From the IMG/VR virus record IMGVR_UViG_3300032087_000495, positions 1 to 52,126 of that record: a stretch of DNA of 52,126 nt; one strand, given 5' to 3'. The number at the start of each line of letters is the position of its first letter. The stretch's first letter is position 1. The DNA comes from a virus. The notes below the pieces were generated by a model. It was not told the DNA's origin. It made no database searches and saw nothing but the letters and a program-made list of their open reading frames with translations. Position numbers and translations under genes: made by a program. Positions 1,561 to 48,392 of this stretch are shown piece after piece.

Positions 1561-4500
1561 CCCATTAGGCTCCCGATACCTTGCTGACGGATTAGGCCAG
1601 AGGCTACATCGTTAGGGAACAGGGCAGCGTACTGTTGACGGTTCACCGGTCCGCTGGCCGCGGGCGGTGGAGGTGGAGGCGCTGCCGACGCAAGGGTGGT
1701 TGTGGGAGGTGGTGCCACCGGTTGCGCCGGAACTGGTTGTTGAAGAGAAGATTGTTGGTTTATTAGCTCATCTGCTCTCCGTTTTACATCTAGTGTTCTT
1801 TCTTCTAAAGAACGAGATATGTTCCGTCCTCGCAGAATCTCCTCTGGGGGTAAAGTAACTTCTTTTTGAAGTGCACTACGTTCTTCACCAGTGGCTGCAA
1901 CAAAACCTGCGTTAATTAAGGCTGATTTAAGTCTTCGGTTGGCTGCGCGTACTGAACGTGGGTTATTACTCAATCCTTTTTCTAAAACATCGGCATAAAA
2001 TTTAGGATCTAAAGCAGCCTTTTCTAAAATACCAAACACTAAAGTGTCTGGAGTATCTATTAGTAATCTTTGGAACTCATTTGCCGCAATCATAGGTTCT
2101 GCAAGTCCCTGACCCTGACCCGGAGCTATTTGAGTAGCGGCACGACCTATTCTTAATCCAGTCAACCTAGTGGCTAATTGAAAAGCTCTTTCGCTTTTAG
2201 GCATAATGTCACCGAGTGACACAGCTTCCCCTGTTTTAGTCAAAGCTCTTTGAGATTGAACACCCACGTTCATAATCTCAGTTAAACGAAGGGCAAACCC
2301 CTCATCTACAAGCCCCTCTTGTCTCATAAGATCTAAAGGACTTGGTTGTCCGGGAACCATAGGGGTGGTTAAAAATTGTTTATATTTTGCAAAATTAAAC
2401 ACCGTATCGCCGCTCTTATTAGGTGCGCTGGTGGCATACATACGAGCTTTCTGTAGAACCATGCTACGAAGTCCATCAGAAGCGCCGGGATGCGTGGCAT
2501 CCGCTCTCTTAGCATTACGAATTAAAGTTTTAAAACCTTTTACGTCACTAGCTTTTTGAGTGCCGGGATTTGCAATAACAGATCCAACTAAACCCATTGG
2601 GTCCGAATCTGCCCCAAGAGAGTTTTTGTAAGATATCTCATTAGCTAACCGTTGTTGATAGAAACCTTCTGGAGGCACATTGTTGCCTAAAGGAGATCCC
2701 TCCGGGGTAGCGGCGCGAGGGTCACCAGTTTCTCTTATCCTCCTAAGTAATAATTTTTCTGCTGACTCTACAGAAGCTAAATCACTAACTATGTCAGGAA
2801 AACGAGGTGCTCCATTTTCTAAAAACAAAACATTTCTGTAATCTTTTTTAAATTGGTTAAGTGCTTCAACAGATACTCTACCTGTTGTAGGGTCTACTAA
2901 GTTTTCAAAAGCGACCCGCATTAAAGTTTCTTGCGCTCCAGTCATGGTTCCTAAAGTGGCACTAAGTCCTAAATCTTTCACTTTTTCCGCACCTAATTCT
3001 TGCGCTAGAAAAGTCATAGATTTGTTCATCTGATCAAATTTTAAACTGGTTTCATCACCGCCACCAGAAAACAACGATTTATGGAGGAGCTCCGGTAATA
3101 TATGACGTGCGCCAGATGAATCCCTTTCTACAATTTTAGCTGGAAAAGCTCTTGTAAATACATCGTTTAACTTTCTTGAAAAGTTATACGCATCGCGTAT
3201 AGCAGTTTGATTTGCAGTTAAAGGTTCCGCATCACTAAAAGTAATTGTCCCGTCTTCTTGACGAACACCGCCCGACTTTACACCAATATCATCTACTAAA
3301 GCTCCTGCAAGCTTATTAAGAACACGAGCTTCGTTAAATTGACTATTACCAGTAAATTCACGAGCCTTATCCTGTAAACGGCTTTTAACAATCATAACGT
3401 CTTTTAAAGTTACCGGCTCAAAAGCAGCCCCTTCTACAATCTGTGGTGCAGCTTCTTTAACTTCCAAAGGACTTTCGATATCGTCCGCTCTTGCCCGAAG
3501 TAAATCAGCCTCCTCTCTCAACCGATCAGCCGTTTCTTTAAAGGAAACTCCCGCCACACGGTCTTGTTCAAATAAATCCATTTGGCTCTTAGCAAGCCTA
3601 TCGTTAGTCGCTGCAAACTTTCTCAAAATATCTGGGTTGTCGGCTGGGCCGCGAGGTTTCCGGATTTGATTCAATCTTATTCTTTTATTAAATGATTCCA
3701 GAGCTTCTTCAGATACTTGTCCGCTTAGTTCTTCAACACGACTTTCAGCAACCGGTTTAGCAGGTTCTACTCGTTGTTGAGCGTTACGTATCTCAATTTC
3801 GTTATTTATTATTTTTGCTTTGTTTCTTAAAGCGTTAAGCAACCTGTTCCGTTGTGGAGCTTTCATGTTTGAGGTAGATAAATCAATGTTTTCTGTTCTA
3901 GATATGGCGCTCTGAACAAGGTTTAATTGGCCTTCTAAGGTATTATCTTGAAGAGCCGGGTTTAATTCATTGTCAAAATAAGTTTTAACAGAGGGATCTT
4001 GAGCTTGAACATCGTTTATAGCGTCTTGGCTCTTTGTTATCTTCTTATTTAAAACATCTATTCTGGCCAAATCAATTTCAGCGGTTTCTGGATTTATGCC
4101 CCGTGAATTAAAAATAAATCTACGAGCCTCTGGAGGGAGATATTGTATAGACCCTTGAGCCTCTGCTTCTAATTCATCAAGAATTTGGGTAAATATGGGA
4201 ACGTCAATTTGTTCAGAACCATCTATTTTGTCATAGAATTGATTTTCCGCCTTACGAGTTTCCTGTATAACTCTTGCAGTCACCGTCTCAATAGTTTTTC
4301 CCGCTTCCATAGCCGCTCTGGTGTCTGTAACCGGATCTTTGGCTTCATCCACCATCATTCTGCCATCATCTGTTTTTTTGGTAGGCGCAACAGCTTTATT
4401 AATACGTTTTGCCTGATCTAATGCATCTGACAGGCGTTGAATAATTGTGCCTTCCATTAGACGCTCACGTAATCTAGATGCTTCAGCCAATAATCTAGGG

Positions 4501-23988: not shown

Positions 23989-24273
23989 TTATACCTTGCC
24001 GCCCTTGGCCATACCCTTCTTCTTCATCATGCCGCCGTTGGCCATCTTTTGAACCTTGCCACCTTTAGCGTAACCTTTTTTCTTCATCATGCCGCCGTTG
24101 GCCATCTTTTGGACTTTACCGCCTTTAGCATAGCCCTTCTTCTTCGCAGGTCCACCGGCAGCCATCTTTTGGACTTTACCGCCCTTGGCCATGCCTTTTT
24201 TCTTCATGGTAGGTGCTACGTTACCTACAAGGCTAGATGCATATTCATCCATTGTCATAAATTCTTTTGCCAT
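23989..24273 (-). CDS. Lys/Gly repeat protein (94 aa)
   Basis: After a 23-residue leader (AKEFMTMDEYASSLVGNVAP) the protein is made of 20-residue units, KKKGYAKGGKVQKMANGG plus two residues, three complete and one partial. The DNA shows matching 60-bp tandem repeats. It is extremely basic, so nucleic-acid or portal/DNA contact inside the head is possible. Recombination between units could change its length. Function unknown. Confidence 0.6.
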   Translation of the reverse strand: MAKEFMTMDEYASSLVGNVAPTMKKKGMAKGGKVQKMAAGGPAKKKGYAKGGKVQKMANGGMMKKKGYAKGGKVQKMANGGMMKKKGMAKGGKV

Positions 24274-44590: not shown

Positions 44591-44619
44591 GCTATATCTA
44601 GGTGACAACATGTTGTCAA
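44591..44619. promoter_or_regulatory. 16-bp palindromic operator with overlapping minus-strand promoter
   Basis: TGACAACATGTTGTCA (44603-44618) is a perfect palindrome. On the minus strand it overlaps TTGACA (44619-44614) with TATAGC 17 bases downstream (44596-44591). On the plus strand it lies about 20 bases into the transcript from the promoter at 44546. A one-mismatch copy overlaps another promoter at 46473-46488, so this looks like a repressor site. Confidence 0.6.
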
Positions 44620-44736
44620 TTTATTGACAAACTTTTTTTATGCCCGTCACGTCAACATCGAATAATGGCGTGGTATAATAGGAACAAGCTTAGAGCTTCG
44701 CTGTTTGACAAGTTAATAGCTACGGAGACTTTTATC

Positions 44737-45321
44737 ATGCTAGTGATAAAACCAATAAGTAATGTCGAGGCCAATCGTGCGATTAAAGAATGGCATCGAC
44801 ACAATGACCCTCTGCCTGATTTGCATATAGCTTTTTGCTATGCGCTGTATGAACACCATGTAGCGTTGAAGCATCGGGAGTTACTAGGGGTGGCGATAGT
44901 GGGCAACCCATGTGGCCGCACAAACAGAAAAGACATACTGGAAGTGCGGCGGGTTTGTTTCAAGCCAGACGAAAAGTTTCATAAATTACGGCGGCACTAT
45001 ATTAACGACAGGTGTAAGGAAGATATATCCTTACGACAAATGCCCGTCCTTGTTTATGATATTGAAGATCAGGTGCATGGTCTGTTTCAAGGCACCATTG
45101 TCAAGTCGTACAAGATACCTAGTTTCTTTCTGCAAGTTGCAGAGATGTATACCCAGCAGTTCTCGCTGAAAAAAGATAGACCGGTTTCTATTCTGTGGAC
45201 GTACATACAGGATACGGAAGATGGCCGGTATATCGAAGAGGCTGGCTGGCATTACGACCATTACGTCAAGAGCCGTGGTGCGTGGCACCCTGCCAAGCGT
45301 CGGTTCGCCAAATACCTATAA
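44737..45321 (+). CDS. XF1762-like GNAT acetyltransferase-fold protein (194 aa)
   Basis: The start is placed at MLVIKPISNVEANRAIKEWH (44737), with GGAG 9 bases upstream; the frame is open further up to 44602 but crosses the operator and 5' leader. The opening EANRAIKEWHRHNDPLPD, LLGVAIVGNPCGRTNRKDIL, EVRRVCF and closing YIQDTEDGRYIEEAGWHYDH resemble the XF1762 family. An inserted region of about 55 residues separates the halves. GNAT proteins transfer acyl groups; phage relatives include Mom-type base modifiers, an untested possibility. It stands alone with its own promoter and terminator. Confidence 0.6.
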   Translation: MLVIKPISNVEANRAIKEWHRHNDPLPDLHIAFCYALYEHHVALKHRELLGVAIVGNPCGRTNRKDILEVRRVCFKPDEKFHKLRRHYINDRCKEDISLRQMPVLVYDIEDQVHGLFQGTIVKSYKIPSFFLQVAEMYTQQFSLKKDRPVSILWTYIQDTEDGRYIEEAGWHYDHYVKSRGAWHPAKRRFAKYL

Positions 45322-46460: not shown

Positions 46461-46489
46461 TATATACTACGGTGACAACATATTGTCAA
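46461..46489 (-). promoter_or_regulatory. Sigma70 promoter with overlapping palindromic operator
   Basis: Minus strand TTGACA (46489-46484), 17-base spacer, TATATA (46466-46461). TGACAACATATTGTCA (46473-46488, plus strand) overlaps the -35 box and spacer and differs by one base from the perfect palindrome at 44603-44618. Repressor binding here would block the minigene operon. Confidence 0.7.
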
Positions 46490-46992
46490 GCCCCAACTGC
46501 TTCGTCTTTATCATCGCGAAGAATACGGACTATTTCTTCAACCGGCGTCAAGTCGAGCCCGATATGTTCAGCCGAACCACGGAAGCGGTTGAGCCACGCG
46601 GCCAGTGACACGCCAGCCTGACGACGTAGTTCTTCTTGCGAGGCTTCGTCGTCAGGGTCAAACGGTTCGTAGCCGCCGCCTTCTTTACGCTTGGCTACCG
46701 GCGATATGTATGCCGGATATTCAGCGACCTTGATTGACACGACATCACTTTGCTGGACTTCTTCCTGCTTAACCACGATCCGTAGTCCGCTGGCCATGCG
46801 CCGTGCCATGTCGATACGCCAGTTACGCGCCGCCGTGCTATCATCCACGCCATAAAATGCGTCATACATTTCATGTTCCGGCTGGGTTGCCAGCCAGTCC
46901 ACAAACTCATCGGCCTTGAATATATTATAACCGGTAGCTTGCAGATAATCGTCGATTATCCGCTGCTTGGTTTTTCTTGCAAAGTTACTCAT
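46486..46992 (-). CDS. Early-region protein of unknown function (168 aa)
   Basis: NFARKTKQRIIDDYLQATGY, NIFKADEFVDWLATQPEHEM, ARNWRIDMARRMASGLRIVV and a C-terminal helix LAAWLNRFRGSAEHIGLDLT. Helix-rich at the ends with a beta middle; not recognised. AAGGAGG sits 6 bases before the ATG, a very good site. It lies just after the 5-nt-periodic region, and its stop codon overlaps the next promoter. Confidence 0.6.
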   Translation of the reverse strand: MSNFARKTKQRIIDDYLQATGYNIFKADEFVDWLATQPEHEMYDAFYGVDDSTAARNWRIDMARRMASGLRIVVKQEEVQQSDVVSIKVAEYPAYISPVAKRKEGGGYEPFDPDDEASQEELRRQAGVSLAAWLNRFRGSAEHIGLDLTPVEEIVRILRDDKDEAVGA

Positions 46993-47012: not shown

Positions 47013-47600
47013 AACCGCCATGCCCGACCTCTACTCACCATGCCTCTTCATTCCACAACCGCCTAACCAAATCTGACCGCGCCCTACCAAACCTTGCCTA
47101 GCCGCACCTCACCGTGACAAACCCCTCCTAAACCGCCATGCCAAGACAAGCCATGTCTAAAGTAACCTTTCCACGCCATGACCGCCCAACCTTGCCAGAT
47201 CAAACCGTCCTTATCGCAACTTTCCACACCTCAACCGCCTTACCTAACCTCATGTAATCCTACCAGACCTGACCATGCCGAAACCGCCTTGCCCAACCGA
47301 ACCTTACGAGACCCAGCCGAAACGCACCATGACCGCCGCGCCCAGCCCAACCTCACCCAGCCTAGCCGTACCGTGACGGACCGAACCCCGCCTTGCCTAT
47401 CCAGCCTTAACCGCCGTGCCACAACAAACCTCACCTCACCGGAACCAACCAAAACTCATGTGACCAGAACCGCCGTAACTTGCCCAGCCGGACCGGACCT
47501 TACCGCAACACACCGGACGCCATCAAACCACAACCGCCTCGACTCTCCATAACTCAACATGGCCCACCCGAAGACACCATAACCGTCTTTCCGCAACCCG
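47013..47600. repeat. ~600-bp non-coding element with 5-nt GG periodicity
   Basis: The plus strand is C-rich; the minus strand reads as runs of GGYNN pentamers (for example GGTAA GGTTC GGTTG GGCAA). A reset unit, AACCGCC on the plus strand (GGCGGTT on minus), recurs at 47013, 47057, 47131, 47233, 47282, 47409, 47468 and 47532, with close variants at 47180, 47203, 47331 and 47581. Distances of 44, 74, 49, 49, 49, 59, 64 and 49 all equal 9+5n. Two longer gaps are one base short. Frames that are open here have no protein-like pattern. No terminator follows on the minus strand. Confidence 0.75.
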
Positions 47601-47601
47601 C

Positions 47602-47622
47602 GGCGGGGGAAGAACCCCCGCC
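47602..47622. other. Perfect hairpin at the edge of the periodic element
   Basis: GGCGGGGG-AAGAA-CCCCCGCC forms an 8-bp G+C stem just past the stop of the 253-residue gene. No T tract follows on either strand, so it is unlikely to be an ordinary terminator. It may protect the 3' end or bound the periodic region. Confidence 0.5.
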
Positions 47623-47630
47623 TATATTGG

Positions 47631-48392
47631 TTAAGCAGCCCTCCGCAACCGCTCTTCTTGTAAGAACTGCATTAGTTCTGCTGTTTCCTGATCCGCGCAC
47701 TCTGGATTGTCACGCGCTAACTCCTGAACCTCGCGGCCCTCTTGCATAAGCTCGTCCCAAATATCTTGGTATTCGCCCATATCTTCAGAACCGGCTATAG
47801 AGAATGTACCGAAAGACCCACGGCCTTTCTCCTGACGGAAATCGCCAAGGCCGATTAGTTGTCCGGCATTCTGTACGAGAGAAGAGATAGAACGTGCGCT
47901 GAAATTAGGTGTAGCAAACCTGATTTCTACTTCGGCGCACCAGTTAGGAAGATAGGCACGAGTACGCATATCCGGTGTGCGGTTCATGTCCGCGGACCGT
48001 ACTACGTCAATTTTAAGGTACGGCTTGCCCCAGATATTTATATTTGCCTGTGGCAAGAAGATAAGCCGGTTAACGCTGGTCTTATTTACACCAGCCGTTT
48101 CAAGTGCAGCCGTAGCCATTGCACCCTTTACGCCAGCCGCTGGGAAACACAAAAGCGTGTCACCTTTTGGTTGGGTGTGCATGGAGTCGGCAAACTCCTG
48201 TTCCGGATTATGTTTGATTTCTTTCTTTTCAGCCGCAGTCTTGCGGCCTGCGCCAACGAGAAGGTCTCGTTTAGCTTTTGCCGACATACTGTTGAAGTAC
48301 ATCGGGGTCTGTCCAATCAAGCGGATTTTGATTTGGCCCTGCTTGATGACTGGGATGCTAATTGCATCATTAGTCTTTTTTGTAGCTGCCAT
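47631..48392 (-). CDS. Highly promoted early protein of unknown function (253 aa)
   Basis: SIPVIKQGQIKIRLIGQTPM, YFNSMSAKAKRDLLVGAGRK, LLCFPAAGVKGAMATAALET, KPYLKIDVVRSADMNRTPDM, WCAEVEIRFATPNFSARSIS, GLGDFRQEKGRGSFGTFSIA. I recall relatives in many phages near replication genes, named only as hypothetical. The closing G-x-G-D-F-R-x-E-K-G-x-G-x-F-G pattern looks like a Gly-rich loop of RRM/RAMP-type nucleic-acid-binding proteins (weak inference). It has a near-consensus promoter and AAAGGAG. Confidence 0.6.
   Translation of the reverse strand: MAATKKTNDAISIPVIKQGQIKIRLIGQTPMYFNSMSAKAKRDLLVGAGRKTAAEKKEIKHNPEQEFADSMHTQPKGDTLLCFPAAGVKGAMATAALETAGVNKTSVNRLIFLPQANINIWGKPYLKIDVVRSADMNRTPDMRTRAYLPNWCAEVEIRFATPNFSARSISSLVQNAGQLIGLGDFRQEKGRGSFGTFSIAGSEDMGEYQDIWDELMQEGREVQELARDNPECADQETAELMQFLQEERLRRAA

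Follow-up and report, generated by a model that had tools for sequence, protein, structure and literature searches.

The element at positions 47013 to 47630 of the viral contig IMGVR_UViG_3300032087_000495 (IMG/VR; 52,126 nucleotides, the whole of which was analysed and is called the window here) very probably, at a level of about 93%, serves a VIPR system as its array of guides and lies beside the vipr gene itself. VIPR (Viral Interference Programmable Repeat) was described in April 2026 in a preprint (PMC13142463; bioRxiv 2026.04.26.720920), and statements on it refer to the main text of that source. According to this text, the system consists of a RAMP protein, Vipr, and of vrRNAs with 9–16 YNNGG repeats, whose NN letters are read with one skipped base. 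The targets reported there are phage-against-phage, seven types are distinguished, one of them being 'staggered arrays with overlapping vrRNAs' (fig. S18), and the description is based on a few systems studied by experiment.

The periodicity of the element is pronounced. The minus strand of 47013–47589 is a chain of GGYNN pentamers, interrupted by the 4-nucleotide unit GGCG, which forms part of the motif GGCGGTT. On this strand, 47 pairs of GG occur at lag 5, against a mean of 20.4 in dinucleotide shuffles (standard deviation 4.1, z 6.5; none of 1000 shuffles reaches 47); the counts at lags 10, 15 and 20 are 46, 47 and 41, and there is no surplus at lags 3, 4, 6 and 7. In the rest of the window, every sliding segment of 592 nucleotides clear of the element has a lag-5 count of at most nine. 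The autocorrelation thus bears out the original prediction, made from the sequence alone, of GG every five nucleotides, and its description of the element as non-coding, with pentamers phased by GGCGGTT and a period unlike that of coding DNA, agrees with our anatomy. Distances between the GGCGGTT-like boundaries, taken from the identical array copy in the related contig L002, are 49, 64, 59, 78, 49, 49, 30+23, 49, 74 and 44 nucleotides; they obey 9+5n with the exception of 78 and 30+23, each of which holds an extra internal slip of one nucleotide. The same rule, also part of that prediction, extends well beyond the window: among the distinct cassettes of related contigs, 302 of 353 have a length of 4 mod 5, where chance alone would give about 71; of the others, 40 look like two slips. 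The boundary is best taken as a single 4-nucleotide unit GGCG followed by GTYNN, and the phase moves by one base at each boundary. A G[GA]CGGTT motif bounds the array at both ends, and the layout is the same in relatives. In total, the array comprises nine regular or nearly regular cassettes and one that is split by an internal slip.

Directly before the array in the direction of transcription lies vipr (47631–48392, minus strand), which encodes a Cas7-fold RAMP protein of 253 amino acids (P0001). Its top match among PDB sequence profiles is 36pp, 'SUSP1 Vipr protein', a weak one (E 0.0098). A direct alignment with hhalign gives E 9e-7 for SUSP1 Vipr, located in the C-terminal G-rich GxGDxR region, and E 9e-17 for gp39 of Gordonia phage UmaThurman, covering most of the protein's length. 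An AlphaFold2 model based on the single sequence was unusable (predicted local distance difference test, pLDDT, 36); with a deeper alignment of 47 relatives, which was used instead, the model reached a pLDDT of 79 and a predicted template-modelling score (pTM) of 0.75. With this model, Foldseek reached E 0.001 or lower in 71 matches, and the PDB matches listed are all Csm3/Cas7-family RAMP proteins or Cas7-like effector complexes (best E 2.6e-6). Structural alignment with VIA-align reaches a Z of 9.3 (138 residues, root mean square deviation 3.2); normalized to the query length, the TM-scores are modest at 0.3–0.45, as a remote homolog would be expected to give. SUSP1 Vipr (36pp) was compared by sequence only and is absent among the fold matches, the fold library ending in April 2026. 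We conclude that the 253-residue protein is a Vipr-type RAMP protein without the extra domains of Cas RAMPs. A scan of bacterial genomes found no close relative of the window's Vipr, and a DNA similarity search gave nothing in known phages.

The pairing of gene and array recurs widely. In one viral collection, 138 contig stretches encode close relatives of Vipr; 80 were kept for analysis, and where a related contig extends far enough downstream of vipr, an array nearly always follows the gene. Cassettes of this clade contain 6–16 units, with a mode of nine. A second Vipr clade, about 30% identical and collected with UmaThurman gp39 as query, comprises 37 viral contigs; in 36 of these, GGY arrays lie close to the gene and, with few exceptions, on its strand. 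A scan of this kind also detected the arrays of the phages UmaThurman and Ecliptus, with the SUSP1 array as positive control, so that the hunch of similar stretches in other phages proved right. The number and order of cassettes turn over quickly among relatives, and individual cassettes recur in other arrays and in other orders, which holds even for phages that share 73% Vipr identity. In UmaThurman (L391, NC_031249.1), a perfect GGYNN array at 3587–3860 lies over the annotated hypothetical gene gp40, directly after gp39; this gene call is probably spurious.

The variable letters of the pentamers carry information. Between unrelated cassettes, pentamer positions 1 to 3 are G, G/T and Y, and positions 4 and 5 are near random. 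In pairs of cassettes that are at least 75% identical, changes affect positions 1 to 5 in 3, 15, 18, 7 and 11% of cases; within shared cassettes, NN is kept and GGY positions 2 and 3 drift, mostly between G and T and between C and T. The claim that spacing is conserved and sequence is not therefore holds between cassettes but fails within them, where NN is kept across phages. The conservation of NN together with the recurrence of cassettes looks like selection acting on a repertoire of guides; neither an origin nor a packaging site nor a spacer would be expected to show it.

In order to decode the guides, NN pairs were joined with one skipped base (NNxNNx...) according to the rule of the preprint (PMC13142463), a code that was thereby applied to sequences found without its use. 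Cassette 5 (47289–47333; this and all other cassettes on the minus strand) has the NN letters AT GC TC TG CT AA TC TG AA and reads as the antisense of F-H-D-L-R-H-E-A-I. Its pattern, ATNGCNTCNTGNCKNARNTCNTGNAA, occurs at no fewer than 120 viral sites, and in 113 of the 120 listed, the opposite strand encodes FHDLRHEAI, known from tyrosine recombinases as their catalytic motif, with the skipped bases at codon position 3 (wobble). An integrase exemplar at a site of this pattern belongs to PF00589, and 18 sites of the 120-contig set agree in full with the guide as it stands in the window. A guide family of relatives (L005, L015, L016, L019, L032, L037) was recognized by eye as spelling a Prim-Pol motif, ahead of any scan. 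The corresponding pattern has at least 120 sites; all 120 listed are in frame, in open reading frames of at least 100 amino acids, with a motif of the type D/E-[VIT]-R-G-[DE]-G-G-Y, and the exemplar belongs to PF09250. Guides of L007, L009 and L036–L039 read IWRRIRL(V/I)P(F) and match D5-type primase-helicases in two contigs, both of which had been picked solely by the Prim-Pol pattern. Cassette 6 (47240–47284; NN: TC AT CA CT AG TA GA TA AA) belongs to a guide family common to 21 of the 80 related contigs and corresponds to the antisense of the 5' part of tRNA-Arg plus about two bases upstream. The family pattern TCNATNCANCTNAGNTANGRNTRNAW is found at 121 or more sites in at least 120 viral contigs, all in one sequence cluster; ARAGORN was run on 20 of these contigs and predicts a tRNA-Arg at a site in every one, with the anticodon TCT in 18. 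The last units vary within the family (GG TG AT, GG TA AA, GA TA AA), and members other than the window's own match sites exactly. In 148 bacterial genomes from the phylum of L431, this pattern is absent.

Typical carriers of integrase, Prim-Pol and D5 helicase are prophages and satellites. The window itself contains no tyrosine integrase (PF00589), no Prim-Pol (PF09250) and no tRNA, and the tested records of VIPR phages, several of which are fragments, have neither PF00589 (10 records) nor PF09250 (nine besides the window), so that the targets belong to other elements. Judged from these sequences, the job of the guides is most likely the suppression of satellites and prophages in a shared host, and on the best reading the phage appears to be a non-integrating one, with its guides directed against rivals that integrate; for the tRNA-Arg guide, phage-borne tRNAs, integration sites and the host are all conceivable targets. 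We somewhat favor the view that VIPR acts here as a broad weapon against satellites and prophages, in which a single guide of 9–12 dinucleotides, by leaving out the wobble base of each codon, encodes a conserved motif (FHDLRHEAI, D[VI]RGDGGY, IWRRIRLVPF) and so hits whole gene families instead of individual rivals, guides are swapped among phages as cassettes, and the array has no tails, the guide ends being set by the one-base GGCG phase break.

For SUSP1 VIPR, binding to double-stranded DNA without a protospacer adjacent motif, and repression or blocking, have been demonstrated experimentally (main text of PMC13142463). By analogy, the minus strand of our element would be transcribed with or after vipr into a GGY/NN RNA; Vipr subunits may line this RNA, one per pentamer, holding GGY and presenting NN; each stretch between GGCG phase breaks would constitute one guide; and the complex would bind matching double-stranded DNA, again independently of such a motif, and repress or block it, presumably to the benefit of the phage. 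The site for loading a protein filament that had been considered initially finds a loose counterpart at the RNA level, where RAMP proteins assemble along a guide RNA.

Several observations weigh against the interpretation as a VIPR guide array. Nine of the eleven cassette segments of the window lack an identified target. The patterns of cassette 7/8 and of the first nine units of cassette 10 have no exact viral match, a result of two similarly stringent patterns which also tells us that matches are not automatic; cassette 7/8 has a single isolated match, in Ekhidna lutea, probably by chance, and a tRNA-Ser reading of this guide, suggested by inspection alone, is not put forward. The window's own tRNA guide mismatches every viral site seen by at least one letter, with one site at one mismatch (of 18) and 31 sites at two in the 120-contig set, and tRNA-Arg is a host gene as well, so that this guide may act on the host. 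No structured 3' tail is visible between cassettes, which are separated by GGCG only. The collection scans read guides with a skip of one nucleotide only, and support within this clade is wholly in silico, vrRNA and binding being predicted. The evidence that favors the skip of one base over alternative skips comes from the preprint (main text of PMC13142463) and not from these scans. When all guides were decoded against the relatives' own contigs, there was no clear skip-1 signal over shuffled guides. When the three decoded families were each scanned in contigs that a different family had selected, no skip-1 site with two or fewer mismatches appeared; these cross-family scans set the background and are no test of the skip rule. 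Raised skip-1 counts of coding-like guides were attributed to composition or coding periodicity.

What is more challenging is the question of whether the array mainly reprograms the host, i.e. represses host tRNA-Arg and host genes, and is not directed at rival elements. One of the most widely shared guides does match tRNA-Arg, and most guides of the window are without an identified target in viral contigs. Yet the other decoded guides match integrase, Prim-Pol and D5/SF3 helicase, which are hallmarks of prophages and satellites, and the last units of the tRNA family vary as if they were tracking particular tRNA alleles. We regard host reprogramming as the main role as rather unlikely. Far less credible is an R-loop-primed replication origin, or a packaging or recombination site, formed by spaced GG, as put forward in the original prediction. 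The G-rich strand is RNA-like, and the element is situated in a replication module near DNA polymerase A; but NN holds conserved, cassette-specific information that decodes to specific genes, cassettes turn over quickly in number and order, and the element always lies beside the RAMP gene. The cumulative GC skew does not switch at the element, the skew seen being a local effect of the array itself, and the strong upstream promoter on which the R-loop had been based was not recovered, no sigma-70-like promoter being found directly upstream. The strand rich in GG is better understood as the RNA strand of a guide array, and the NN letters as target information; packaging and recombination find no support. 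Translation into a low-complexity repeat protein is hardly conceivable: plus-strand open frames of 124 and 89 amino acids overlap the element, as the UmaThurman array overlaps gp40, but a 5-nucleotide period with 4-nucleotide slips cannot hold one frame, and cassettes of 9+5n shift the frame between relatives. A multivalent RNA that acts as a sponge or decoy toward a protein binding RNA in 5-nucleotide registers (TRAP-like or CsrA-like) can be dismissed with similar confidence, for although TRAP targets have period 5 and the stretches of array RNA fold no better than shuffles, gene-specific NN would be needless in a sponge, yet NN spells protein motifs, at codon positions 1 and 2, as well as a tRNA gene.

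Compared with known systems, the putative VIPR system of the window resembles type II VIPR (SUSP1 and a P. fulva prophage), as described in the main text of the preprint: both have a single phage RAMP gene with an adjoining non-coding RNA of GGY/NN pentamers, a 1-nucleotide skip on the codon wobble, and targets on either strand in competing mobile elements. In contrast to SUSP1 Vipr, to which it has only distant similarity, the window's protein is 253 amino acids long and has a helical C-terminal extension; the conserved neighbor (46486–46992) is different, the guides are packed head to tail with GGCG between them and without the invariable structured 3' tail, and the targets of the clade are integrase, Prim-Pol, D5 helicase and tRNA-Arg. 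The continuous multi-guide array of the 'staggered' type possibly has the same architecture, and the tail-less packed array may equal this type. Judged by the preprint's main text, three things are new: the present clade, the shared cassettes without tails found in it, and guides on codon positions 1 and 2 of protein motifs; the words 'integrase', 'tRNA' and 'primase' do not occur in that text, and its supplement may list such targets. UmaThurman gp39 and Ecliptus gp19 of Gordonia phages are homologous Vipr proteins that likewise accompany GGYNN arrays, but with about 30% Vipr identity and other array boundaries. With Csm3 and Cas7, the backbone of Class 1 CRISPR-Cas, the protein shares the fold and presumably the lining of the guide RNA; unlike CRISPR-Cas, the locus has no palindromic repeats, no contiguous spacers, a register of five instead of six nucleotides, and no other cas genes in view.

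The remaining cassettes of the window follow each other toward lower coordinates. Cassette 1 (47539–47583; NN: AT GT CG GG AT GA AT GA GA) is also present in L005, L007, L009, L015 and L037. Cassette 2 (47475–47534) consists of 12 units (NN: GT TT GG CC GT GC AA CC CC TG AA AC) and cassette 3 (47416–47470) of 11; cassette 4 (47338–47411) has 15 units, one internal 4-nucleotide unit, and related cassettes in L021 and L058. Cassette 7/8 (47187–47235) forms one guide with the 4-nucleotide unit GGAC inside, near 47206–47210, and reads GAxGTxAAxGCxAA(xx)CxTTxCTxAAxTG. Among the relatives compared for it (L005, L019, L029, L032, L037, L058), the guide stays conserved despite its internal one-base slip; the GGAC unit is present in most phages, and L019 has a regular pentamer there. 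Cassettes 9 (47138–47182; NN: AT GT AA TA TA AT TT TT AT), 10 (47064–47133, 14 units) and 11 (47020–47059, eight units) complete the array. Unit 7 of the tRNA-Arg guides has CAT in place of GGY in most of the family, and conserved non-GGY triplets (CTT, CGT, GGA) exist in other guide families too. Guides of L042, L044 and L046–L048 (GT GC CC GT GC CC GT GG) represent repeating V-A-P / G-A-T codons and match collagen-like repeat genes in viral contigs.

Between vipr and the array, a GC-rich hairpin is located on the minus strand at 47602–47622 (stem of 8 base pairs, loop of 5 nucleotides; fold −27.1 kcal/mol, z −2.4). Hairpins of differing sequence occupy this gap in nearly all relatives, and processing, insulation or partial termination are candidate roles. 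Directly downstream of the array, a protein of 168 amino acids is encoded (46486–46992, minus strand), whose only match, a weak one, is to PHROG 15946, a family of unknown function. A homolog exists in 62 of 62 testable relatives, on the same strand and at a median of 575 nucleotides past the end of vipr; the gene is missing from the 37 Gordonia-type loci, and the protein has no match in the phage collection. This may be a Vipr-accessory (vap) gene or no more than a neighbor that is conserved. Further upstream of vipr, a zinc-ribbon protein and DNA polymerase A are encoded. No Rfam family exceeds the threshold at the element, and there is no sign of hammerheads between cassettes. Ten neighboring proteins match no Cas family in Pfam and PHROGs, and three proteins scanned with PADLOC match none of its families, Cas families included. 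Elsewhere in the window, a Mom-like DNA modification protein (PHROG 1384; 44602–45321, plus strand) is encoded on the strand opposite to its neighbors, and a 60-base-pair tandem repeat at 24013–24206 overlaps minus-strand open frames.

The window and its relatives, i.e. 138 contigs and 37 of the Gordonia type, constitute an independent test of the noncontiguous code, which returned single, sensible gene families. Annotation pipelines place hypothetical genes over such arrays, as UmaThurman gp40 illustrates. Shared cassettes with known targets open the way to a study of how guides are acquired and exchanged, and no Cas1-like adaptation gene is in view at these loci. The decoded targets suggest guides that recognize a protein motif whichever synonymous codons encode it, which would represent a new targeting strategy.
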